From Thermoplasmata archaeon (GTDB lineage: Archaea > Thermoplasmatota > Thermoplasmata > Halarchaeoplasmatales > Halarchaeoplasmataceae): DNA of 64,000 nucleotides. The notes beneath the pieces are model-generated. The model saw only the letters and a list, made by a program, of their open reading frames with translations. It searched no databases and was not told where the DNA came from. Numbering within the stretch: position 1 is the stretch's first letter; each line of letters begins with the position of its first letter. Positions 13,363 to 61,774 of this stretch are shown in pieces. Location: NCBI GenBank assembly GCA_003554965.1, contig PWHR01000041.1, forward strand, positions 1-64,000, in the 5' to 3' direction. The translations under genes were made by a program, and so were the position numbers.

Positions 13363-16300
13363 ATGATTTCTAGTCTGTTCGATAGATCCCCCAAGGAAGA
13401 AAAAGAAACCTCCTCCGGCGTAAATTGGCTGGAGAAGAATTGGCATACGGTAGCATGTTTGGTAGGTATATTCATAGTGGCTTTGTTCACTAGATCCTAC
13501 TTCGCATTAGCATCTGCTACTGAATATGGAACCCCGTATCTGCTGGGAGGAGGAGCTGACTCACACTATAATGCAAGGATCATCAATCACATAGTTGAAA
13601 ATAGCGAGCACCTGTTTATGGATCCATTAAGAGCATATCCCCTTGAAGGGTATACAAACACTAGACCTCCTATGTATCAGTGGTCCGTTGTCCTTGGAGG
13701 ATATCTCTTAGCTCCTTTTGCTGGTAGTTTAGAGACCGGAGTTCAATTATCCTTCATGTTCTCCGCTGCCTTTTGGGGAGCGTTAACCACCATCCCTATC
13801 TATTTGATAGGTAAAAATATATTCGGAAAGAAGGCAGGCATCGCTGCTGCATTCCTACTTGCTATAAGTGCTGGTCATCTTGAAAGAGGTGTCATAACCA
13901 ACACGAATCACGATGCATTCACCCTTTTCCTGGTTGTAACCGCCTTTTATTTCTTTATGCGGGCTTTGGAAGAGATCCCCAGAGACAAAAAATGGGTTTC
14001 TGAATGGAAGGACTTTGGAAAGATTAAAGATGGTTTGACAGATTTTTTTGTTAACAATAAGAGAGCACTGCTATACGGTGCGATGACCGGGATGACTCTC
14101 GGTACTGTAGCTCTAGCGTGGAAAGGTTACGCGTATGCGATAGTGATAATACTTGTTTATTTCTTGATCCAATTATTAGTAGATAAATTCCAAAAACGGG
14201 ACTCGATGGGCTTGACTATACTGATATTCGTAACAATGATAGTTGCGTTTTTAATCGCGATCCCATGGTACGCACAATACAGTCCAGGGATACTCACTGA
14301 TTGGTTCCGTTGGCCTCTCGACAGATGGTTCCAGGTTCCTTTCATTATCTTCTTAGGAACTTTTGGAGTAGGAGTATACTTCACCGTTACGAGAGATCTT
14401 CCATGGGTTTTGAGCTTTGCTATACTTGGCGGTGTAGGTCTTGTTTTCTTCTCTTTTGGACCTGATATTATTCAAACTGCGGCAGCGCAATATTTCATCG
14501 ATAACCCGATGTATCAGACTATCGCTGAGGCACAGGCTCCTGAATTCAGTAGATTGATCATGGCAGGTGGTATAGCGACTTTCTTCCTCTCATGGATCGC
14601 AATCGCTTTAGCTGTTTGGCACTTCTTCAAAAAATGGACTAAATCATTTTTGTTCATTTTGATCTGGACCGCTTTTTCTTTGTATATGGCCACACAGGCG
14701 GCCAGGTTTGTATTCACTGCGGCACCTGCCTTCGCATTGACTTCCGGTTGGGTAGTTGCACTGGTATTCGATAAGATCGATTTTGAATATATTGGAAGAA
14801 AGTTCAAGAGTCATAGAGGGAGTACTTTAAGAGGCATAAAAGAGGGTGTCAAGATAAAACATGTTCTCTTCACCCTTTTAGTGGTCTTCATACTGCTGCT
14901 GCCGAACACACTATATGCATTTGATGCCGGTATACCCTTCGAAGATAAAGCGGAGTATGAGGAACAATTTATGGATCTTATACCAGAGGGTTTCAGATTA
15001 GAGCCAGAGGATCCTGCAGCCATGGGCGCAGGTGGTAACCATTTCTTGGGAGCCTTTGGATACAGCTTAGACAAGCCTAGCGACTATTGGCCGACCGCCT
15101 GGGAAGATATAAGAGAAAGGTACGAAGACGGTGGTATACCTTCAGAGGAACGACCTGCATTCGCTAGCTGGTGGGATTATGGGTTTGAAGCCATGGCTCA
15201 GGGCGAGATGCCGACTGTAGCCGACAACTTCCAGACCGCTTATAGATGGGCTGGAAACGTTTTGATGGCTCAGAACGAATCAGCCATGTTGTCTCTTTTC
15301 GTCGGAAGAATGATCCTTTTACCTTATCGAGAAGAAGGTGGTTTTGAAGGAGATGTAAGAGATATTCTAGTGGATCATCTAGGAGAAGAAAAAACCGATA
15401 AGCTCGAAGATATATATGATGATCCGGGTTCTTATAGAGAGGAAGTACTGAACAACCCTGAAAAATATCATCCTAGAGCCGAAGACATCCACAGCACTAA
15501 TGTAAGATGGGCGATGGTTATGGGGACCCTATCTTCCGAAGACCTTTGGACTTTATCCTCGCTATATCACGAATTGAGAGTTAACTCAGGATACGAAAGA
15601 TTGGAGAACGGGATCGGTTATATCGCTGTTGATTCCAGATTGTTCCCCACTTCTGCTCGTGATACAGGGATATTCCATGCTCCTGCATTCCTTTCAGGAC
15701 ACCGCGTTGACGAAAATGGTCAGAGAACACCTATAGATTTCTACAGGATGGAATTGATTGATGAAGAGGGAGAACGATACGAAGATCCAGACGAGGTCCC
15801 GCCTGAAGTGCAGATCGTCGATCAAGAAATAGACTTCCAACCCATGTTTTTCAATACTACAATTTATAGAACATTTGCAGGATATGGATTGCATGAAATA
15901 GATGTTGAAGAGGAAGATCCGATGGATCCCGGTATGGACCCTGGAATGGAACCAGACCCGGGAATTGATCCTGGAGATATGGATGATGATATGGGTGATA
16001 TCGATCCTGGAGATCTAGAGGGAGAAGATGGTAATCCAGACAATGATGGAGATGAGGTAGAAGACCTCCATCAGGATTTTGCCGTGGAAGAAACAAACCC
16101 AGACCAACCCATAGAGATGGATGATCCAGAGATGGAACCTGAGATGCCTGAAGAACCTGAGATGCCTGAAGAACCTGAGATGCCTGAAGAACCTGAGATG
16201 CCTGAAGACCCTGGGATGCCTGAAGACCCTGGGATGCCCGGTATGGAACCTGAGATGCCTGAAGAAGGCATACCAGGTATAGATGCACCACAACAGCAAC

Positions 16301-19300
16301 CGATGCCGGGACGAGGACTTAGACATTTCAGAAAAGTCCACAGAACTGCATATCTTTATCCATATCCAGAAGAAGAATTACAGGAACTTAGCGATAGAGA
16401 ACTGTTAGAGGCTAGAGAAGCGATACCCTTTGATAAAGCCCCAGAATATCAAGATGAAGAGAATATGACGGTAGACACAGCTCCTGCCAGCTATATGAGA
16501 CAGGGTGTGGTCTTTTTGCGTTATTATGATGGGGCAATAATGGAGGGTGAAGTCACAACAGAAGAAGGTGAAGCTATTCCCGAGGCGAGAGTTACGGTAC
16601 AAGACAAATACGGCATACCACATCATAACACTAGAACCGATGAAAATGGAAGCTACAGAGTAGTATTGCCAGAGGGCGATGTTACCATAAAAGTAACCGC
16701 TGGTGGAGAAGAAGACATCGATATGGAAAGAAGTCTTGGAAAAGAAGAATATATAACGTTGGCTGAAAAAGAACTTGAAATAAGTGAAGATCAGGCAATG
16801 AGAAGGGAGATAGATAGGACTGGTGACGGTCAATGGGACTATCTAATAGATCATGATTTTGAGGTTGAATCAGGCGAAGTTACTGGAAGAGTGTTCCTCG
16901 ACAAAGACGGCGATGGTGAATTCGATGAAGAGAACAACGAAACTCTTGTAGAAGAGGGCACTGTATCGATTGATAACAAGTATAATAAAATTGATTACAC
17001 GGCAGAAATAGAGAACGGGACCTACACATTAGACAAGATCGTTCCAGGAAAGTATTCTGCGGAAGCTGATTTACCTGGAAGTGAAACAATTGAGTTCTAC
17101 ATAGAACCTGGAGAAGAGACCGAACAAGATATCCCGGTGACCACGGGTAAGATGGGTGGTAACATAACGTACGGTCCAGAGATAGAAGAAAGAAAAGAGA
17201 TACAGATCGGACTTAGGGAAGACGGAGAGACTGTCTGGACTACTAACATAACATTAAAAGAAGATGAGAATTATGCTTTCGAAGAAATAGTGCCTGGCAA
17301 TTATTCACTAGAAGTAGAAACTGAAGGGTATACATTAGCTCAGGGGTCTAAAGAAGTAAATATTGAAAAGGGAGAGGAAATAGAAGAAGACATTCGGATA
17401 GTCGAAGGTCATCTAATTGAGGGCATTGCTACAATAGACGGAGAACCGATTCCAAATCAAAAACTTTCAGTTTTGGGATTAGAATACGACAGAATGATAA
17501 CGACCGATGAAGACGGTAGATTTGATATAAAGCTCACCGAGGACTTTTATCAAATTTATGGGGTCGAACGAAAAGATGACAGAGCATATGTCCACATTGG
17601 AAGCTTAATGGTCGATTCAGATAAGACTGGTGAAGATATGTACGAGGCAGAATTCCAAAAAGCATACAAACTCAGAGGTTCTTTGGAATACGATGAAGAA
17701 CCTGTTGAAGGAGCGCAACTTTTCACCCTCGGAGATACAGGGAAGGAATATTTCACGACCACTAATGAAAAAGGTAATTTCTCGATTTATCTACCCCAAG
17801 GACACTATACTATATACGGATTTATGGGGCCCGATCACGATCAGATGGATCAAATGCAACCTCCAGATCAACCTCCAGAAGATGAAGCTGATGAGGTATA
17901 TTTCATAGAAGAGGTCAATCTTAACAGAGATAAAACAATAGAAAGACCGATCCAGGGTGAATCGGGACATGAAGTCAGTGGGCAGATAAGCCGAGGTATC
18001 TTCGACGAAGAATACACACTAGAGAAAGGCGAAGAACTTCAATCACAGATCGAGATCAGCTTTGACGACTATACTTTTAATAAAAACACTGACGGTGAAG
18101 GTAATTATAGATTAATACTCCCTGAAGGAGATGTCTCCTTTACAATAGACCATGAAGGTTACGAAGAAAAAACTATCAACATAAATATTCCGGAAGACAC
18201 TCGAGAGGAAATCCTATTGCAAGCGAAAAACGTTTCCTTAGAAGGACAAATTCATTTCAATCGAACGGAAGAATTGACTATAGAATTCAGGCCCATAGAA
18301 AACGGAGCAGTTGGAAGAGAAACTACGATACAGAAAGAGGAAAATTACTTTGAGACCGATCTACAACCAGGAGATTATGAGATCATAATTGATGAGGTCT
18401 TTGACGACGGAGATTCCAAATACAGATATTCGGAAAACATATCTATAGAGTCTGGAGATGACGACATCATTAAAGATTTGACTCCTAAGTACAGAGTGAG
18501 AGTAACAGGGTCAATATACGATTATGAAGGAGAACCTGCTTCGGCACATCTCTACTTCTCCGGCCCAGAAGAGAGAGATATAGGAATAGAAGAAGCGAAC
18601 GAAACCTACGAGATCTTCCTTGAACCAGGAGATTATTCTGTTAGAGCGGTCAATAGAGAAAGAGAACTAGGCATGCAAAAGAACATCTCATTTGAAGAAG
18701 CTTTACATGATAGCGATATACATCTCGAAGAATCAGAACCAGTCAGGAGATACCTGACCTATGAAGGTGAACGTAAGGAAGATATCCCTATAAGTCTTGA
18801 AAACTTAGAGTCTGGTTACGTGATTAACACCAAAAGTGAAAATGACGGTGAATTAAACGTATCCCTTGTTGAAGGGAATTACAACCTAAGAGTGGATAAT
18901 CATTCTAGAGAAGAGATCATCGATGATATGCCTAGAGACGTGATCTACAGTTTAGATGTGGAGAAAGACAGAGATGAATTAGCCACAGATGGTTCGATAG
19001 AGATGGAGAGAGAGGTTCGCAATGCAACTTTCTCTGGGGTAGTTAAAATAGATGATCGTCCTGTGGAAGGAGTAGATGTTCACATCCTGTCCGACGGAGA
19101 AGAGATGATTACAGAAACTACCGATGAGCACGGTGAATTTGAGACAGAACTCCTGCACGGACGATATACCATTTATGTAGAACATCAGGGTCAACAAGGC
19201 TTGTACGGTGAATTTGAATCCATCACGATGACTGATGAGAACAAGGAATTAGATATAGACTTGAAAGAGGCTGTTATACTCAGAGGTGAAGTAGTACTGG

Positions 19301-20370
19301 ACGGGAACATCCAAGAAAATGAGGAGTTGGAAATCCAGAAAGGTGAATCATTAAAAAGGATTACTACCGATAGTGCAGGGGAGTACAGAGTGATATTACC
19401 GAAAGGGAGTTATGAGATCTTCTCAGAGACAACAAGGGATCCTGTACTTCATGAACTTCCTAAATACGAACATAGAGATGAAGTGACATACGAACACAGA
19501 GAAGTTATCAATTTGAGATATTCTAGACGCCATACCATAGAACTGGCTGAAAAAGACGAATATGATCCAAAAATCATCGAAGACTCTCTAGAGTCAAAAC
19601 ACGCCTCTCAAGGAGATAATGTGACTTATACAGCTACTGTGATGAATTACGGAACTGTTACCGATGAATATGAATTGCTACCAGGTGAAGAAGTAGAATG
19701 GGATATAGATTTTGAACCTAGAACGTTAACTTTGAGTCCGGGTGAATCAAGGGAAGTGGAGATTACAGTTAGGGTAGACGATAATGCCAGCGTTGAACAT
19801 CCTCCTTTGAACTTTTTCGTCCAATCTATGAGATCAGAGGAGAGCAGTGAACTCACTGACATACCGATCGAGATTGAACCAGTTTATGGAGTCGAACTCT
19901 CACCAGAGATCGTCGAGAAAAGGTATAATTATGGAGAGATAAACCTCGAAATGGAAGTTGAAAATATAGGGAACATAGAAGATGATTACTACTTGAGAGT
20001 CGCTAATAGAGCTAATTTGAGAGACCAAGGTTGGCTAGTGACAGTCGAAAATAGAACAGGAAATATCGGGGATCAAGAAACTGAAACTATCAACATCAGA
20101 TTAGATGCAACTAGGTCAAATCCCAAGGAGGACATAAGGGTCGAATTGAGAGCTAGGTCCGCAACAGATAGGAATATAGAGGATATAGTGAGTGTAAGGA
20201 CAAGCATACCGGAAATGACAGCAGACATAGATACTATACATCTAGACGGTGATGAAGACTTGAGTCTAGAAGAAGATGAATTTGAGATGGCTACATGGCA
20301 CTGGGCATTGATAATAATAGCTGCAGCGACCGTATCTATCTACTTGATGAAGAAAAAGAGGTGGATCTGA
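13363..20370 (+). CDS. aglB: Giant oligosaccharyltransferase AglB/STT3 with a long extracellular repeat tail
   Basis: The protein has about 2335 residues, roughly 2.5 times a usual AglB. The N-terminal part (to about 510) has multiple membrane helices. STT3 catalytic motifs are present: acidic D66 in GGGADSHYNAR, D187-equivalent NHD (D184 from this start), and WWDYG at 603-607. It should transfer lipid-linked glycans to Asn-X-Ser/Thr. After about residue 850 comes a Pro/Met/Glu/Asp-rich linker. About ten carboxypeptidase-regulatory-like or Cna-B-like beta modules follow (pattern DENGSYRVVLPEGDVTI), then CARDB/NEW3-like domains, and a final membrane helix with a KKKRW end. The tail is rich in N-glycosylation sequons. 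An SD GGTGA precedes this ATG; a GTG three codons upstream is the alternative. The stop overlaps the next gene by one base. Confidence 0.93.
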   Translation: MISSLFDRSPKEEKETSSGVNWLEKNWHTVACLVGIFIVALFTRSYFALASATEYGTPYLLGGGADSHYNARIINHIVENSEHLFMDPLRAYPLEGYTNTRPPMYQWSVVLGGYLLAPFAGSLETGVQLSFMFSAAFWGALTTIPIYLIGKNIFGKKAGIAAAFLLAISAGHLERGVITNTNHDAFTLFLVVTAFYFFMRALEEIPRDKKWVSEWKDFGKIKDGLTDFFVNNKRALLYGAMTGMTLGTVALAWKGYAYAIVIILVYFLIQLLVDKFQKRDSMGLTILIFVTMIVAFLIAIPWYAQYSPGILTDWFRWPLDRWFQVPFIIFLGTFGVGVYFTVTRDLPWVLSFAILGGVGLVFFSFGPDIIQTAAAQYFIDNPMYQTIAEAQAPEFSRLIMAGGIATFFLSWIAIALAVWHFFKKWTKSFLFILIWTAFSLYMATQAARFVFTAAPAFALTSGWVVALVFDKIDFEYIGRKFKSHRGSTLRGIKEGVKIKHVLFTLLVVFILLLPNTLYAFDAGIPFEDKAEYEEQFMDLIPEGFRLEPEDPAAMGAGGNHFLGAFGYSLDKPSDYWPTAWEDIRERYEDGGIPSEERPAFASWWDYGFEAMAQGEMPTVADNFQTAYRWAGNVLMAQNESAMLSLFVGRMILLPYREEGGFEGDVRDILVDHLGEEKTDKLEDIYDDPGSYREEVLNNPEKYHPRAEDIHSTNVRWAMVMGTLSSEDLWTLSSLYHELRVNSGYERLENGIGYIAVDSRLFPTSARDTGIFHAPAFLSGHRVDENGQRTPIDFYRMELIDEEGERYEDPDEVPPEVQIVDQEIDFQPMFFNTTIYRTFAGYGLHEIDVEEEDPMDPGMDPGMEPDPGIDPGDMDDDMGDIDPGDLEGEDGNPDNDGDEVEDLHQDFAVEETNPDQPIEMDDPEMEPEMPEEPEMPEEPEMPEEPEMPEDPGMPEDPGMPGMEPEMPEEGIPGIDAPQQQPMPGRGLRHFRKVHRTAYLYPYPEEELQELSDRELLEAREAIPFDKAPEYQDEENMTVDTAPASYMRQGVVFLRYYDGAIMEGEVTTEEGEAIPEARVTVQDKYGIPHHNTRTDENGSYRVVLPEGDVTIKVTAGGEEDIDMERSLGKEEYITLAEKELEISEDQAMRREIDRTGDGQWDYLIDHDFEVESGEVTGRVFLDKDGDGEFDEENNETLVEEGTVSIDNKYNKIDYTAEIENGTYTLDKIVPGKYSAEADLPGSETIEFYIEPGEETEQDIPVTTGKMGGNITYGPEIEERKEIQIGLREDGETVWTTNITLKEDENYAFEEIVPGNYSLEVETEGYTLAQGSKEVNIEKGEEIEEDIRIVEGHLIEGIATIDGEPIPNQKLSVLGLEYDRMITTDEDGRFDIKLTEDFYQIYGVERKDDRAYVHIGSLMVDSDKTGEDMYEAEFQKAYKLRGSLEYDEEPVEGAQLFTLGDTGKEYFTTTNEKGNFSIYLPQGHYTIYGFMGPDHDQMDQMQPPDQPPEDEADEVYFIEEVNLNRDKTIERPIQGESGHEVSGQISRGIFDEEYTLEKGEELQSQIEISFDDYTFNKNTDGEGNYRLILPEGDVSFTIDHEGYEEKTININIPEDTREEILLQAKNVSLEGQIHFNRTEELTIEFRPIENGAVGRETTIQKEENYFETDLQPGDYEIIIDEVFDDGDSKYRYSENISIESGDDDIIKDLTPKYRVRVTGSIYDYEGEPASAHLYFSGPEERDIGIEEANETYEIFLEPGDYSVRAVNRERELGMQKNISFEEALHDSDIHLEESEPVRRYLTYEGERKEDIPISLENLESGYVINTKSENDGELNVSLVEGNYNLRVDNHSREEIIDDMPRDVIYSLDVEKDRDELATDGSIEMEREVRNATFSGVVKIDDRPVEGVDVHILSDGEEMITETTDEHGEFETELLHGRYTIYVEHQGQQGLYGEFESITMTDENKELDIDLKEAVILRGEVVLDGNIQENEELEIQKGESLKRITTDSAGEYRVILPKGSYEIFSETTRDPVLHELPKYEHRDEVTYEHREVINLRYSRRHTIELAEKDEYDPKIIEDSLESKHASQGDNVTYTATVMNYGTVTDEYELLPGEEVEWDIDFEPRTLTLSPGESREVEITVRVDDNASVEHPPLNFFVQSMRSEESSELTDIPIEIEPVYGVELSPEIVEKRYNYGEINLEMEVENIGNIEDDYYLRVANRANLRDQGWLVTVENRTGNIGDQETETINIRLDATRSNPKEDIRVELRARSATDRNIEDIVSVRTSIPEMTADIDTIHLDGDEDLSLEEDEFEMATWHWALIIIAAATVSIYLMKKKRWI
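16138..16245 (+). repeat. 18-bp tandem repeat inside aglB
   Basis: Units of the type CCTGAGATGCCTGAAGAA are repeated about four times exactly and then in variant form (CCTGGGATGCCTGAAGAC), encoding Pro-Glu-Met-Pro-Glu-Glu repeats in the linker between the catalytic domain and the surface modules. The copies are nearly identical at the DNA level, so the array is young and likely to vary in copy number. It also creates long open frames on the opposite strand that are not genes. Confidence 0.9.
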
Positions 20371-54673: not shown

Positions 54674-56029
54674 CTATGCTTTATGAAGGCGCCACCTTCC
54701 TATGTAAAGGTCGATTTCGTCCTTATCCATAACATCGAACATCACATCATGTTTCTCACCGTCTCCCGCTACATAGTAGAATTCGTTTTCCTCCATCTTC
54801 TTCGTTTTAGGTATCAACATCACTTTCTGCTCTTCGAGTCTTTCTTTGAACTTTAATCTTAAAAGTCCTCCTTCGATATCGATCTCAGCTTTTTTCAAGC
54901 CTCTGTAGGACTCGTATTCTCCAGAAAGTGTTTTCATCTTCTCCTTCCTAGCGAAGAACGGCAGTTTCTCGGGATCCTTTCCTTTCATGACCGCTAAGAC
55001 ACCTTTTCCTATCTCTTCCATAGAGTACGAGGGAGATGTATTACAGGCGAGTGCTACCCCGTGATCTTCATCGAATCCGAGATACGCGCTAGCTACAGCT
55101 ACAGAGCCGCCGTGACCCACCAGTTCTTTTCCCATGAACTCGTTAACCGCCCATCCATAGCCGTACATGCCGATCTCGCTTTCTACGTATCCAGTATGGG
55201 CTTTTTCCAACAGGTTCTCGTCGATTATATGCTGTCCTCCATACGAACCGCGGTTCATATTCATCTTCACGTAATTCGCCAGTTCATCCACACAGCTCAA
55301 AAGACCTCCAGAAGCGTAGCCCAATTCCGAATTAGGATAAGAGCACTCTTCGGGTTCACCATCCCTTATAAAATACGGCGTCATGAAGTCCTCATCATCT
55401 TCTTCATATTCAAAAGTGGATCTTTTCATCTCTAAAGGTTCCAAGATATTCTTTTTCACGTATCGGGAGTAACTCATCCCCGATGTCTCCTCTATGAGCT
55501 TTCCTAGAAGATCATAACCAGAGTTGAAGTAAAAGAATCTCTCATCCTTCTCTACCATCTCTTCTTCGGCGCCGTTCAGATGAACGTAAAAGTCGTCCCA
55601 TCCTCCTAATGGCGCTCCCCTTTCATCCATACCTATAAGCCTGTCTATCAGGACTTCCGCTACAGCTAGAGAAGGCATGCCGCATGAATGGGTCAACAAT
55701 TCATGGACCGTGACGTCGCTTCCCCACTCAACAGGTAGGTGATCTTCCACGCTACTCTCTAGATAAAGTTCGCCCTTCTCAACGAGTTGGAGGACACCTA
55801 ATGCGGTGAAGGACTTGGAGCACGAGCCGATCCCGTAAAGAGTTGTCGATCTGGCGGGTAAGTTCTTTTTCAAGTCTCTAGCTCCGAAACCCCCTGAGTA
55901 AACAAGCTCCTCACCTTCGATCAGTGCCACACTCACACTCGGTATATTACCTTCATTCATCCAATCAGTCAAAAATCTCTCTAATCTCTTTTTCTTGTCC
56001 TCGTCCAGGTTCTGCTCACGCATCTTCAT
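54674..56029 (-). CDS. Serine beta-lactamase-like hydrolase (class C/PBP type)
   Basis: A 451-residue protein with the three sites of the serine beta-lactamase/DD-peptidase fold: S-C-S-K (69-72, nucleophile and base), Y-F-N in FFYFNSGYDLLG, and H-G-G-S in LVGHGGSVAVASAYLG. A C-terminal lipocalin-like beta domain follows (about 360-451). It has no signal peptide. In archaea, which lack peptidoglycan, such proteins are esterases, D-amino-acid peptidases or proteases; the substrate cannot be predicted. ATG at 56029 is preferred among three close candidates. Confidence 0.9.
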   Translation of the reverse strand: MKMREQNLDEDKKKRLERFLTDWMNEGNIPSVSVALIEGEELVYSGGFGARDLKKNLPARSTTLYGIGSCSKSFTALGVLQLVEKGELYLESSVEDHLPVEWGSDVTVHELLTHSCGMPSLAVAEVLIDRLIGMDERGAPLGGWDDFYVHLNGAEEEMVEKDERFFYFNSGYDLLGKLIEETSGMSYSRYVKKNILEPLEMKRSTFEYEEDDEDFMTPYFIRDGEPEECSYPNSELGYASGGLLSCVDELANYVKMNMNRGSYGGQHIIDENLLEKAHTGYVESEIGMYGYGWAVNEFMGKELVGHGGSVAVASAYLGFDEDHGVALACNTSPSYSMEEIGKGVLAVMKGKDPEKLPFFARKEKMKTLSGEYESYRGLKKAEIDIEGGLLRLKFKERLEEQKVMLIPKTKKMEENEFYYVAGDGEKHDVMFDVMDKDEIDLYIGRWRLHKA

Positions 56030-56083
56030 AAGTATCAACCCTGATCTAGAAATAAAAAGCTGATATTAACATTTATCCAACAT

Positions 56084-59000
56084 CTAAAGCCGATAATCGT
56101 CCTCATATTCGTCGTAGTCCACTAATTCCAACTCATCCTCTAATTCCGCCACTGTCTTCATCTCGATTTCCTTCTCAATTTTCTTATGCTTTTTCCTCAG
56201 CTTAAAGACAGCCAATCTGACAACGAAGAGCGCAGCTATTACCCCGATGACCAAGTAGATGGCTGAGAATTCCAGCCGATCTCTTCTAACTTCAAAAGTG
56301 ACGGACTCCGTGATCGTATTGCCTACTCTATCCCGTGCTCTAACCTCTACGGTGTACTCGCCGTCTTCGAGACCTATAAAGGTGTACTCAGTATCTCTAC
56401 CTAAATATATCCAATCACCTTTCTCTCCGTCTTCAATGATCCTGATCTCATAACTATCTATCCCACTGAGATCGTCTTCACCGATCCATTCAACCATTAC
56501 ATCAGTCTTTTCCAACGTATCTTGATCTTCAGGAGCGCTTATGTTTAGGGTTGGAGGAACAGTGTCCACTAGAAATATTACTTCATCCCTAACCGAGTAT
56601 GTTTCTTTTAGATTGGCCCTCAATTCGATCTTATTTTCTCCATCATCAAGATCTTCTATTGAATATTCCGTCACATTCCCTATTTCTATCCAATTTCCTT
56701 TATTCAACCTGTACTCAAAATATTCTATCTTAAGATCTTCATCTAGAAGTCGATACTCCCATTCAAGGGTCAGATCTCTAGTAGCATACATCCTGCCATC
56801 TTCAGGGTTAGTGATATTGAGATCAGCCTCTGGCATATTTATCTCGAAGTTTACGCTATCTGTGTTGAACCTCTGTGTCTCGTCTCTCGCCCTTATCCTA
56901 ACGGTATAATGACCCTCTCCAAGCCCGCTGATCTCATGGCTGGACTTGTTTCCAAGATTATCCCATCTACCCCCACATATCTGAAATTCATGGTACTCTG
57001 CATTCTCTGAAGACCAATTTATTGTGACAGTGTCACCTTTTATAACTTCACCCGACGCAGGTGAATTTATCTCGACCCGTACCGTCTTTACTGTAAAATC
57101 GACTTCATCGATGGCTTCTTCCCCTTCTTCATCCTCAATCCTTATACTAACGGAATAATTTCCGTCATCCAAGTCTCTATAGGTGTGTTCGTCCATACCG
57201 GTGACATCTTCCCAATCCGTCTCAACGGGGCCATCCAATTTGATCTCAGTCTTCGCGTAATTATGGGCAGTCCATTCTATACTCACAGTGCCTCTCCTTT
57301 CTATATCTCCTTTTTCTGGTGAAATTATCTCCACGTGTGGACCCGTATGGACGAAAAATGTTATCTCATGAGATGCCGTCGCTCCCTCTTCATCCTCGGC
57401 CTGAACTTTTAGTTCGTGTTCTCCATCTTCTAGGTTTTCAAAACTCATATACTCATCGATGGTACTCCACTCTTCATCATTCAGATGGATCTTGTATTCT
57501 ACCTCTCCTTCTCCACCCTTTGTTGCCCATGAACCGGTGAACTCGGAGGAGAAGATGGTTGTATTCTCTCTAGGATCGAGTATCCAAACTGTAAAGTCAT
57601 CCAACTGTTCTATAGAAAGAAGGGGATTCATATCCTTGTTTCCATCTCCGGCTATGATGTAGGGTTCATTCCATGTTCTTAAATCATCATCTGGCGTAGC
57701 GTCGGGATATCTAAGTTCATAGTCATCCCAATAGTTCCCTTCAGTACCGTTGTCCCAACTGTTATCGGAGTTATCATAGGCTTGACCATCGATATCTTCA
57801 AAAAAATCCTCATGAGTTATACTGTTGTGATAAACGGCATTATCGTAGGAATTTGAAAGATACACACCATAATGATAGCTATCTTGTATTATGTTTCCAG
57901 AGATCAAGTTCTTGTGAGATGAAGAAAGATAGACACCAGGCCATTCGTTCTGAACAAGGTTATTCTCGATTATTCGGTTCTTATCAGATCCTCTTAAATA
58001 TATTGCTGCAGTTCCGTTGAAAATACGGTTATTTTCTATCCTGTTTCTTTCAGAATTTTGAAGTGTTATGCTGTCTATCGAATCCTCGATGTAATTATCG
58101 AATATTTTATTATTATTGGAGAAACCTATTAATATACTAGTGTCCCCTGCCTTCATCTCCTGGCCACTGATAGTGATGTTACGGGAATTTGCTAGTATAA
58201 CTTGTCCCACTTCGTCCTCTTCTGTAACTTTAAAATCGTCAGTATCTTCAAGATAGAGTATCGGTTTTCCTTCGATTTTGTTCGATTCATCGATGGTGTG
58301 CGTGTTCCAATATTCTTTTTCATTTCCGCTTATGTATATACTAGAGTCTTCAAAGGAATTGTCAAAAAATTCGGAATATTGAGAGGAACTCAGATGAATC
58401 CCTGAACTTTCGCTTTGAGAGATACTGTTTTGCCGATATTCGTTACCCTCAGAATTGAGGGATCTTATGCCCCTTAGATTGTTTGATAAAATATTCTCTG
58501 TAAAGTTGTTGTTATCAGAGTAAGAGAGATAAAAACCATCATCATCGTGTGACGCTTTATTTTCAGTTAATGTATTATAATCTGATCTGAGAAGAGCTAC
58601 ACCCCGACTGTTTTTATAAAATCCATTATCGGCAAAAGTGTTATCTTCAGAATAACTAATCTGTACACCTGCCTGGTTGTAAGATATATTGTTGTCAAAT
58701 ATCTTATTGTCATCTGATTCTGCAAGGAAAACTCCCTCGGCGTTATTAAAAATTGTATTATGTTTAAGTTCGATTTCATTAGAACTCTCTAGTGCTATTC
58801 CTTCTCCATAAACTGGATAATGGACTTTGGATACGGTGTTCTCCTCAACGTTAATCTTTTCTGAATCAGTAATACGGATGCCTGCGTGGTTATTCTCAGC
58901 GCTGTTTTTCCGTACGACGATCTCATCACTCTCATCTATAAAGATACCGTAGGAATTCCTCCGCAAATAATTATTTTCTATTTGAGCATTGGATACGTTT

Positions 59001-61774
59001 AAGAGATATATCCCGCAGTTAGAGATACCAGATGAAGTGGTTCTCGAAGCATTGTAGAGTCTTGAATCCTTTATGACAAAATGTTGATTCACATTAGATA
59101 TAGTTATAGTAGAGTTCTCACTTTTCCCGTCAATCTCGTAGTTCTTTATTTTGTATGGATCATCTTCAGATCCATCCCCACTCCATCCTTCCCTTTCTGC
59201 TTTTTCTGTCAACTCAGTATTACTTTCTACATTTATTGGATCTCTCTGCTTGTATCTGTTAATAGTTTTTGGCTCGTCTGTGTAATTCAAATCTGATTCA
59301 TTCGATCTTTCCGCTTCCAATTCCTCACCCAGCGATCTCCCTGAACCTTCTTCATCCCTCTCAAATTCTGTATCAGGATCTTGCGAATTGTAAACAGCTA
59401 AAGCGTAATCCTGATTCAGATCTCCATCATTGTTCCCATCGGCTGTGATCTCAAAACCCTGTACCCTGACTTCGTATGTTCCGTCCTCGACTTTATCCGG
59501 ATGTATGTAGACGTTCTGGACATTGTTCGAATCATCCCAACCGTCTCCAGTACTGTCGAAATCGCTCATGGTTCTTCGGTTCGGAGGTGACCAACTGTCT
59601 GAGAATGAATTTCCTCTGTATACATCTCCTGAAGGGGATTTCACTTCAAGGTTCAGGTTATTTTTTAAGGTGCGATTATCGCCTTCGGCAGCCGCTGCAT
59701 CGGTCCAAACTAGTGAAATCTTGAGAGGTTCGTCTTCCCTTTCGGCCTCAATTTCGTAGGTCTTTTCATCACCAGTCGATAATGCATTATTCTGATCATG
59801 AAGCGCGAATGGAACTGGATCCTCTTTAGGATACTCTAGTTTGGATATGTCGACCATACCCCAACCTATATCTTTGTTGGGTATGCTTTCGGGAATGCAA
59901 TCTCTCGAATCTATATCTTCTGCAGTGTTTATCAGCATAGCTTTCACCATAGCGGGGCTAGGCTTTTCACCGAAATTTTCTTCATACCACTCTACCACTA
60001 CTGCGGAAGCACCTGCTACGGCGGGATTTGACATGGATGTTCCAGACATCCAGTCGTAGGTTCCACCTTCGTGAAAAGAAGGATTCCCCAAAGAAAGAAC
60101 GTTTCGCCCGGGAGCTACAACGTCGGGTTTTACCCTGTTATCTTCAGTCCAACCGCGTGAACTGAATCTAGCTATCTGCCCTGGATCGTTGGTATTACCG
60201 CCTCCAAAATAGGTTCCGTCCGGCATGTAGCTCTCTGTAGCTCCTACCGTGATCACATTTTTAGCGTTGCCAGGACTGCCTGTGGTTTGCTCTCTAGATC
60301 CTGAGTTCCCAGCAGATACTGTGACTACCATTTCCTCGTTATCTTCTGAATCTCTATTTGCATCCCTGACTCTTTCATCGAATATCCTGTCAGATTCTAT
60401 ATATTCTCCTCCTGTCGCTGATCCCCATGAGTTAGTATGGATATAGGCATCGGCTTCCTGTTTAGGTATCTCTACAATCTCATGATAATCGGCCCCCACC
60501 CAACTTGGTTCGAATATCTTCGCAGCGAAGAGTTCGGATTCGTAAGCCAGACCTTGCCCCATCAGATATGGTGCTTGTCCCGGGTACTCACCTTCTCCTT
60601 CGGCTCCGTGGTAGGTGTCTCCTGCAGCTGATCCAGAAACATGAGTGCCGTGCCCGTGTGGATCATACCAGTCCTCCGGACCCAGCTCTTCGAAACCGTG
60701 ACCTCCGATGACCCTGTCTGTAAGGTCGGGATGTCCAGCATCACCTTCAAAGCCCTCTCCTATCCCTGTATCGGCCACAGCTATCGTAACGTCTTTTCCA
60801 CTGTAACCGATCTGGTTGATGTAGGCGCCGTAGTCACCGTGTTTCCTGTACGGTATGTCTGGATCGTCGTGCTCGTCGTCCATTATCCAAGCGCCTCCTC
60901 CGATGATCTGACTATCCACCTCTGAGTGGAGTTCAGGCTCTCTGTATTCTGAGATATGATAAACCTCATCCATCTTGGCTAGTTCTTTCAATTCTCTTTC
61001 AGAGGTTATATCGACTCTTAAACGTTCGGTTTTGTCACTACCGCTACTGGACATATTAACGTGAAATTCAGAGCTTATGTCCCCTACGCTTTCATCTGTA
61101 GCGTGCGGCATCAGTTTTACATCGACTGTAGATAAATTCTCTTTCATTCTGGAGAATTCTGGAGATATTTTGTATTCTGGATGATACTTTCCGATCCAAT
61201 CTATGAAAAACAACTCTTTTAGCTCTTCGGCTTGTTCTGGGGTCATCTTAACTTCGTATGCGTGGTTTGGTATGTAATTCAACAGTTCAACACCTTTCTC
61301 TTCTAAAGTTTCAACCCATTCTGGATTTATCGGGCCGAGCATATGCACTATGTAATGATTTTTTACGCCCGATTCGTAGCTATCTGCCTTTAAATCTAAG
61401 TTTGGATGGTCTTCTTCTTTTATATCAAAAGAATGTCCTTTGACGGATATTTCAGTTCTCGAAGGCAGCGTATTGACCCTATAGCCTTCATCTTTCAAAA
61501 ATTGTATGACACTCGGGCTTTCTTCTATCAAAATAAAATTTTCGTATGTATCCAGGATGTTTAACTCTTTTTCTTCTATATCTCCCTTTTCCTCTTCGTT
61601 CCTGGCCATTATCAAAACTATATCTTTTTCTTCGTCCGTCTCAGACCTTTCTAAAGCAGGTTCTGTGTCACTCTCTTCAGATTCTATACCCACTCCAACT
61701 ACCAAAAGAGATAGTATAAGTATAGATACGATGACGAAGGTCGATATCTTTTCTTTTTTCAATCTTTTAGACAT
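56084..61774 (-). CDS. Giant cell-surface subtilisin-like protease with beta-helix and Ig-like modules
   Basis: A 1896-residue S8 protease. N-terminal signal helix (STFVIVSILILSLLVVGVG), propeptide-like region to about 300, then a catalytic domain with D335 (VADTG), H375 (HGHGTHVSG), oxyanion N490 (SAGNSG) and S580 (SGTSMSNP), all intact. A P/pre-peptidase-like domain follows. Residues about 860-1330 are a right-handed beta-helix of NosD/CASH type with short repeats such as NNHAGIRI and YNQAGVQI. About five Ig/fibronectin-like domains follow (VEWTAHN, INWSSEN, LEWEYRL, VEWIGED). A membrane helix at about 1833-1853 and an acidic cytoplasmic tail end the protein. It is displayed on the cell surface, probably for degrading or binding external proteins and glycans. 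An AGGAG SD precedes the ATG. Confidence 0.95.
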   Translation of the reverse strand: MSKRLKKEKISTFVIVSILILSLLVVGVGIESEESDTEPALERSETDEEKDIVLIMARNEEEKGDIEEKELNILDTYENFILIEESPSVIQFLKDEGYRVNTLPSRTEISVKGHSFDIKEEDHPNLDLKADSYESGVKNHYIVHMLGPINPEWVETLEEKGVELLNYIPNHAYEVKMTPEQAEELKELFFIDWIGKYHPEYKISPEFSRMKENLSTVDVKLMPHATDESVGDISSEFHVNMSSSGSDKTERLRVDITSERELKELAKMDEVYHISEYREPELHSEVDSQIIGGGAWIMDDEHDDPDIPYRKHGDYGAYINQIGYSGKDVTIAVADTGIGEGFEGDAGHPDLTDRVIGGHGFEELGPEDWYDPHGHGTHVSGSAAGDTYHGAEGEGEYPGQAPYLMGQGLAYESELFAAKIFEPSWVGADYHEIVEIPKQEADAYIHTNSWGSATGGEYIESDRIFDERVRDANRDSEDNEEMVVTVSAGNSGSREQTTGSPGNAKNVITVGATESYMPDGTYFGGGNTNDPGQIARFSSRGWTEDNRVKPDVVAPGRNVLSLGNPSFHEGGTYDWMSGTSMSNPAVAGASAVVVEWYEENFGEKPSPAMVKAMLINTAEDIDSRDCIPESIPNKDIGWGMVDISKLEYPKEDPVPFALHDQNNALSTGDEKTYEIEAEREDEPLKISLVWTDAAAAEGDNRTLKNNLNLEVKSPSGDVYRGNSFSDSWSPPNRRTMSDFDSTGDGWDDSNNVQNVYIHPDKVEDGTYEVRVQGFEITADGNNDGDLNQDYALAVYNSQDPDTEFERDEEGSGRSLGEELEAERSNESDLNYTDEPKTINRYKQRDPINVESNTELTEKAEREGWSGDGSEDDPYKIKNYEIDGKSENSTITISNVNQHFVIKDSRLYNASRTTSSGISNCGIYLLNVSNAQIENNYLRRNSYGIFIDESDEIVVRKNSAENNHAGIRITDSEKINVEENTVSKVHYPVYGEGIALESSNEIELKHNTIFNNAEGVFLAESDDNKIFDNNISYNQAGVQISYSEDNTFADNGFYKNSRGVALLRSDYNTLTENKASHDDDGFYLSYSDNNNFTENILSNNLRGIRSLNSEGNEYRQNSISQSESSGIHLSSSQYSEFFDNSFEDSSIYISGNEKEYWNTHTIDESNKIEGKPILYLEDTDDFKVTEEDEVGQVILANSRNITISGQEMKAGDTSILIGFSNNNKIFDNYIEDSIDSITLQNSERNRIENNRIFNGTAAIYLRGSDKNRIIENNLVQNEWPGVYLSSSHKNLISGNIIQDSYHYGVYLSNSYDNAVYHNSITHEDFFEDIDGQAYDNSDNSWDNGTEGNYWDDYELRYPDATPDDDLRTWNEPYIIAGDGNKDMNPLLSIEQLDDFTVWILDPRENTTIFSSEFTGSWATKGGEGEVEYKIHLNDEEWSTIDEYMSFENLEDGEHELKVQAEDEEGATASHEITFFVHTGPHVEIISPEKGDIERRGTVSIEWTAHNYAKTEIKLDGPVETDWEDVTGMDEHTYRDLDDGNYSVSIRIEDEEGEEAIDEVDFTVKTVRVEINSPASGEVIKGDTVTINWSSENAEYHEFQICGGRWDNLGNKSSHEISGLGEGHYTVRIRARDETQRFNTDSVNFEINMPEADLNITNPEDGRMYATRDLTLEWEYRLLDEDLKIEYFEYRLNKGNWIEIGNVTEYSIEDLDDGENKIELRANLKETYSVRDEVIFLVDTVPPTLNISAPEDQDTLEKTDVMVEWIGEDDLSGIDSYEIRIIEDGEKGDWIYLGRDTEYTFIGLEDGEYTVEVRARDRVGNTITESVTFEVRRDRLEFSAIYLVIGVIAALFVVRLAVFKLRKKHKKIEKEIEMKTVAELEDELELVDYDEYEDDYRL

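Follow-up and report, generated by a model that had tools for sequence, protein, structure and literature searches.

A long, doubly anchored tail of AglB in Thermoplasmata and its cognate partner gene: a candidate two-gene oligosaccharyltransferase scaffold

The oligosaccharyltransferase (OST) of archaea has been described as a single-subunit enzyme. In AglB of Archaeoglobus fulgidus (AfAglB) roles were assigned to D47, D161, H163, E360 and the WWDYG motif (PMC8342417), and AglB proteins were divided into CC, IS and P1 units (PMC3703281). Eukaryotic NOMO is a string of Ig-like domains which touches TRAP near the translocon (PMC11169918). A full-text search, in which subscription journals were thinly covered, found no description of the AglB tail, the partner or the degenerate AglBs presented below.

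The window, a stretch of 64,000 nucleotides from a Thermoplasmata archaeon (contig PWHR01000041.1), contains an AglB frame which in the window DNA reads without an internal stop and continues far beyond the catalytic domain (Table 1). The same strand carries a partner gene directly downstream. On the opposite strand are found a 1896-aa surface protein with subtilase S8, NosD/beta-helix and Ig-like domains (56084-61774) and a beta-lactamase-fold protein with a Pab87 octamerisation domain (54674-56038).

Table 1. Features of the aglB locus in the window
Feature	Residues	Position	Strand	Remarks
AglB/STT3, long form	2338 aa	13354..20370	+	start GTG 13354; ATG 13363 is an alternative
N-terminal multi-TM STT3 region	33-522	13450..14919	+	DXD-1 (GGGAD, D69), DXD-2 (N185-H186-D187), TIAE (E392), R451
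Catalytic soluble domain	545-845	14986..15888	+	WWDYG at 15169-15183
Private Pro/Met/Glu/Asp low-complexity insertion	~851-975	15904..16278	+	18-bp tandem repeat
Conserved HF..YRTAYxNPYP segment and module 1	991-1150	16324..16803	+	corresponds to the domain that ends canonical AglB
Modules 2-11, transthyretin/prealbumin-like	1165-2050	16846..19503	+	domain search, HMMs, fold matches
Two C-terminal Ig-like domains	2060-2298	19531..20247	+	first MSP/HYDIN-like in predicted fold
C-terminal TM helix and cytosolic KKKRWI	2315-2338	20296..20367	+	kept across the class
Partner gene: signal peptide, beta domain, CARDB, TM, KRRPW tip	272 aa	20370-21188	+	ATG overlaps aglB stop (TGATG)

The Pfam family PF02516 (STT3) matched the window protein with 61.3 bits against a cut-off of 24.5, this being the sole match in the genome, and the nearest solved chains were those of AfAglB (3waj/5gmy, E 8.5e-13). 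The initial annotation took the catalytic part to be intact. The first DXD Asp, the TIAE Glu, R451 and WWDYG are all kept; in the second DXD the first Asp reads Asn185, likewise in the nearest relatives L044 and L053; the residue is Asp in most family members and Asn in 10 of 140 other AglBs. By its core and motifs the protein is assigned to AglB/STT3, and glycan transfer to N-X-S/T is predicted, with the NXT enrichment of intact lineages as an indirect indication.

The low-complexity insertion, whose DNA comprises 7.2 copies of the repeat, interrupts a conserved AglB segment (FxGY ... GIPG ... HF..YRTAYxNPYP), and a comparable one was found only in L056 and L060 among 40 class sequences. As it is private and sits inside a conserved segment, it was rejected as a joint or hinge between head and tail; the Pro/Met/Glu linker noticed initially is present and forms no part of the shared design.

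In the tail, Pfam detected CarboxypepD_reg in seven stretches (175 bits) as well as SdrD_B, and Ig-like domains towards the C-terminus, in agreement with the surface modules first proposed. Instead of about ten modules followed by CARDB-like domains, it consists of 11 modules and then two Ig-like domains; a G-x-Y column, or one equivalent to it, is conserved in every module. A model of L044 comprising the soluble head and the first modules (mean pLDDT 89.6) aligned over residues 42-519 with AfAglB 496-868 (Z 17.3), and the alignment extends to where module 1 ends. Module 1 thus belongs to the canonical AglB core, and the later modules are an extension. The window tail was modelled with pLDDT 88.9 and pTM 0.52, which leaves the packing of modules uncertain; its modules matched transthyretin-like domains (carboxypeptidase D, Z 11.7) and the last domain modelled matched MSP/HYDIN-like domains. 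The second membrane anchor of the initial annotation was recovered as the C-terminal TM. Since the multi-TM head and this TM with its basic end anchor both extremities, the tail is predicted to be an arch rather than a free rod. A transferase borne on a rod and glycosylating the S-layer at a distance, as had been suggested, is not supported: with the active site in the head and its own distal end back in the membrane, the tail has no way of moving the active site outward. Nor can the S-layer be the general target in the class, because Cuniculiplasma cells have aglB and are devoid of an S-layer (PMC5155288).

A survey of AglB length in relatives, which the initial annotation had called for, showed the long form to be class-wide and not private to the window genome. 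PF02516 was matched in 50 of 61 genomes (the window's own and 60 relatives), aglB being single-copy in most genomes. Where the contig permits, the matched frames are nearly all about 2,000-2,400 aa, and AglBs across the class are nearly all 2,050-2,420 aa, 58 complete frames having a median of 2148 aa. Short exceptions are L149 (1589 aa) and L175 (1232 aa); in the latter the partner lies 2.6 kb downstream of the short AglB, pointing to a frameshift in that record. Matches in a scan of named genomes came from Thermoplasmata, DHVE2/Aciduliprofundum, Methanomassiliicoccales, Cuniculiplasma and E-plasma records. The AglBs from 40 class genomes have the same head and a long tail, nearly all with one C-terminal hydrophobic helix and a basic end. 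The common layout is thus an STT3 membrane core, the catalytic domain, 11 ordered modules, two Ig-like domains, the TM and a basic tip. Identity to the window protein is mostly 15-38% in the tail and mostly 28-54% in the head, in a collinear alignment. HMMs built per module recovered M1-M11 and Ig in order in class proteins, most of which had gone into the HMMs; the independent cases are L240, with all 11 modules and both Ig domains in order, and L219, with ten of the eleven modules in order. A misassembly or frameshift joining two genes was rejected, the same architecture recurring in scores of loci that are independent of one another, some of them in single-contig genomes; a single polypeptide, as first read from the open frame, is supported.

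In the phylum, AglBs fall into size classes. Those of 900-980 aa gave no module match, those of 1120-1430 aa contain M1, M2 and between one and four further modules and no C-terminal TM, and complete members of the long class (2070-3230 aa) end in a TM. The longest, of 3000-3230 aa, belong to families f39 and f47; there L087, L093, L100, L103, L104, L105 and L116 have several hundred extra residues ahead of WWDYG, and no partner adjoined these AglBs where room existed. In a head tree one branch (support only 64%) divides the long form from the rest, so that it needs one change, the tree being quick, without a mixture model and unrooted, with long-branch warnings on other branches, so that gain and loss are indistinguishable.

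The partner was found directly 3' of the long aglB at every class locus with room (82 of 82) and likewise at all 20 loci of the methanogen family f6; since these f6 loci were obtained through partner matches, their adjacency is conditioned on partner presence. At 73 of these 102 loci a start codon with a 4-nt overlap is available, starts being assigned as the nearest codon. CARDB was matched in 41 of 42 partner-family members by Pfam, and partner matches occurred in 53 of 61 f6 genomes. Outside the class the partner adjoins none of the 11 long and none of the 13 short aglB loci with room; in G064 (family f29) a full-length partner match lies just beyond AglB. A partner-like CARDB-TM forms the C-terminus of six AglBs outside the class; a fusion of partner and AglB is only suggested there, because CARDB is common in these genomes. 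Besides the partner, neither a widely conserved aglB neighbour nor a conserved translocon neighbourhood was found. The coupling of the genes, and this only, leads us to infer that the partner binds AglB as a second subunit.

Family f6, which we take to be Methanomethylophilaceae, was positive for MCR in all genomes tested (8/8), and its AglBs are mostly degenerate (L215-L218 and L225-L243, with tail and partner retained). WWDYG is gone in 20 of 21 assessable f6 AglBs, the intact one being L240; D69 is kept in 4 of 21 (L240 included) versus 138 of 138 elsewhere, and the TIAE Glu and Arg451 are also largely lost, the lost residues being replaced variably. DNA capable of encoding WWDYG was present in 6 of 61 f6 genomes, several of which are incomplete, and all six belong to genera g43 and g164; 12 of 14 genera are devoid of the motif genome-wide. 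One fully supported branch separates intact from degenerate heads. The basal L233 keeps GGSD and reads WLDFG, as an apparent intermediate; its frame of 2544 aa is longer than those of its neighbours.

The tail was described from the start as rich in N-glycosylation sequons, and in the window it carries 19 compared with 6.7 expected from shuffles (z 5.5). Against residue shuffles, NXT is enriched 2.91-fold and NXS 1.48-fold in 107 intact long AglB tails, where control patterns range from 0.65 to 1.13; in 20 degenerate tails, which form one clade and hence provide one evolutionary contrast, the values are 1.10 for NXT and 1.47 for NXS. The arm itself is probably N-glycosylated. Because the intact f6 tails (g43, g164) reach just 1.25 for NXT, the enrichment may have fallen before catalysis was lost. 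These data also bear on the explanation that degenerate AglBs have kept enzymatic activity, through a changed chemistry or on a different acceptor, and that their tail still serves catalysis. The residues retained by L233 and the selection acting on the head would suit it, but the variable replacement of the first DXD Asp, the TIAE Glu, the conserved Arg and WWDYG, together with the absent NXT enrichment, makes it the least probable of the explanations considered.

In degenerate AglBs dN/dS was 0.10-0.46 for the head and 0.12-0.70 for the tail, some dS being near saturation, and the tails are still collinear with the class tail (hhalign E 1.7e-45). Head, tail and partner persist under purifying selection after the catalytic residues were lost. 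Because one methanogen family keeps arm and partner in this state, the arm probably fulfils a separate function. A tail serving only as a docking arm, which positions acceptors for its own AglB and has no separate role, would be in keeping with the physical fusion to the catalytic subunit and with the constant length within the class; selection on all three parts in genomes where no WWDYG-coding DNA is left argues against it, and we regard it as unlikely.

The explanation favoured, tentatively and at slightly less than even odds, is a two-gene oligosaccharyltransferase scaffold with a role independent of catalysis. The tail would be an integral arm of the Thermoplasmata enzyme, arching over the membrane and forming a two-subunit scaffold with the partner, which has beta/CARDB domains and one TM. 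Such a scaffold might hold or mature exported polypeptides leaving the translocon and offer their sequons to the active site, and this role would survive catalysis where glycosylation was lost; its contact with the translocon is suggested by analogy. The weak sequence conservation of the tail suits a structural spacer equally, and its modules, as modelled, have a common fold; both points count against a scaffold. The main alternative is a surface coat, in which the glycosylated arch is an envelope spacer or partial substitute for an S-layer and AglB its membrane base. Of the other roles suggested initially, binding of the substrate chain corresponds to the scaffold and a wall component to the coat. 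Modules resembling those of pilins and adhesins, the NXT-enriched tail, the retention of tail and partner after catalytic loss and the S-layer-less Cuniculiplasma with its aglB (PMC5155288) are all compatible with a coat. Nevertheless, aglB is single-copy in most genomes, the TM head is under tighter constraint than the tail in 5 of 6 degenerate pairs, which is unexpected of a mere anchor, and module 1 with the head-tail junction is the most conserved part of the tail. A coat was considered rather improbable and the scaffold was preferred to it.

In its most complete form the scaffold reading would have two genes supply an archaeal OST scaffold located at the export site, built of AglB with a NOMO-like arch and a TRAP-like partner. 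Its role in protein maturation would be separable from glycosylation, and in one methanogen family it would have turned into a catalysis-free pseudo-oligosaccharyltransferase; in this form the reading is doubtful. The class-wide fused arm and the overlapping cognate partner gene suggest that multi-part OST assemblies arose in archaea too. The degenerate methanogen family provides a natural experiment in which glycosyl transfer can be told apart from any scaffold function, and its AglBs predict loss of N-glycosylation in most of family f6.

By analogy and not by established homology, the scaffold could operate in the manner of the luminal accessory arms found in the eukaryotic OST and translocon (NOMO, TRAP, OST subunits). 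NOMO (BOS complex, PDB 9c7v) resembles the tail in that a row of Ig/transthyretin-like modules lies on the trans side of a secretory membrane and is followed by one C-terminal TM, and differs from it as a separate protein not fused to AglB. NOMO2 was the best solved match of the tail profile (E 4.4e-34 summed over repeats, the best non-NOMO protein giving 2.6e-6); single tail stretches gave 1e-5 to 1e-9, at best about 2e-9. Pfam NOMO_5th reached 45.5 bits summed over the window protein (cut-off 27) with no stretch passing alone, and a single match above the cut-off was found in 0 of 292 phylum genomes, with seven sub-threshold matches. In the fold searches with the L044 model and the window tail only single transthyretin-like modules were matched, NOMO2 (9c7u) matching one module of the L044 model; NOMO is absent among the listed fold matches of the whole tail, which is no proof that the folds differ. 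Because the profile score sums over repeats, NOMO is treated here as an analogue and not as an established relative, and its lead may reflect its repeat number.

The partner is similar to TRAP alpha/beta and to single-pass OST/translocon subunits in its signal peptide, luminal beta domain(s), TM and short basic cytosolic end. Its identification as TRAP or OST48 by sequence was rejected: none of 42 partner proteins matched Pfam TRAP_alpha/TRAP_beta or an OST subunit at E 0.1, CARDB only being found, and the 60 top-ranking PDB matches of the partner profile included no TRAP chain. With the CnaB/SdrD-B repeats of Gram-positive pilins and MSCRAMMs the tail has in common the transthyretin-like rod modules, unlike them being TM-anchored at both ends and fused to an enzyme. 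The closest described system remains AfAglB-L (PDB 3waj/5gmy/7e9s), which shares with the window protein the STT3 core, the WWDYG catalytic domain and module 1 as last domain; whereas its chain (867-875 aa) stops after module 1, the window locus adds 10 modules, two Ig-like domains, a TM helix and a cognate partner gene.
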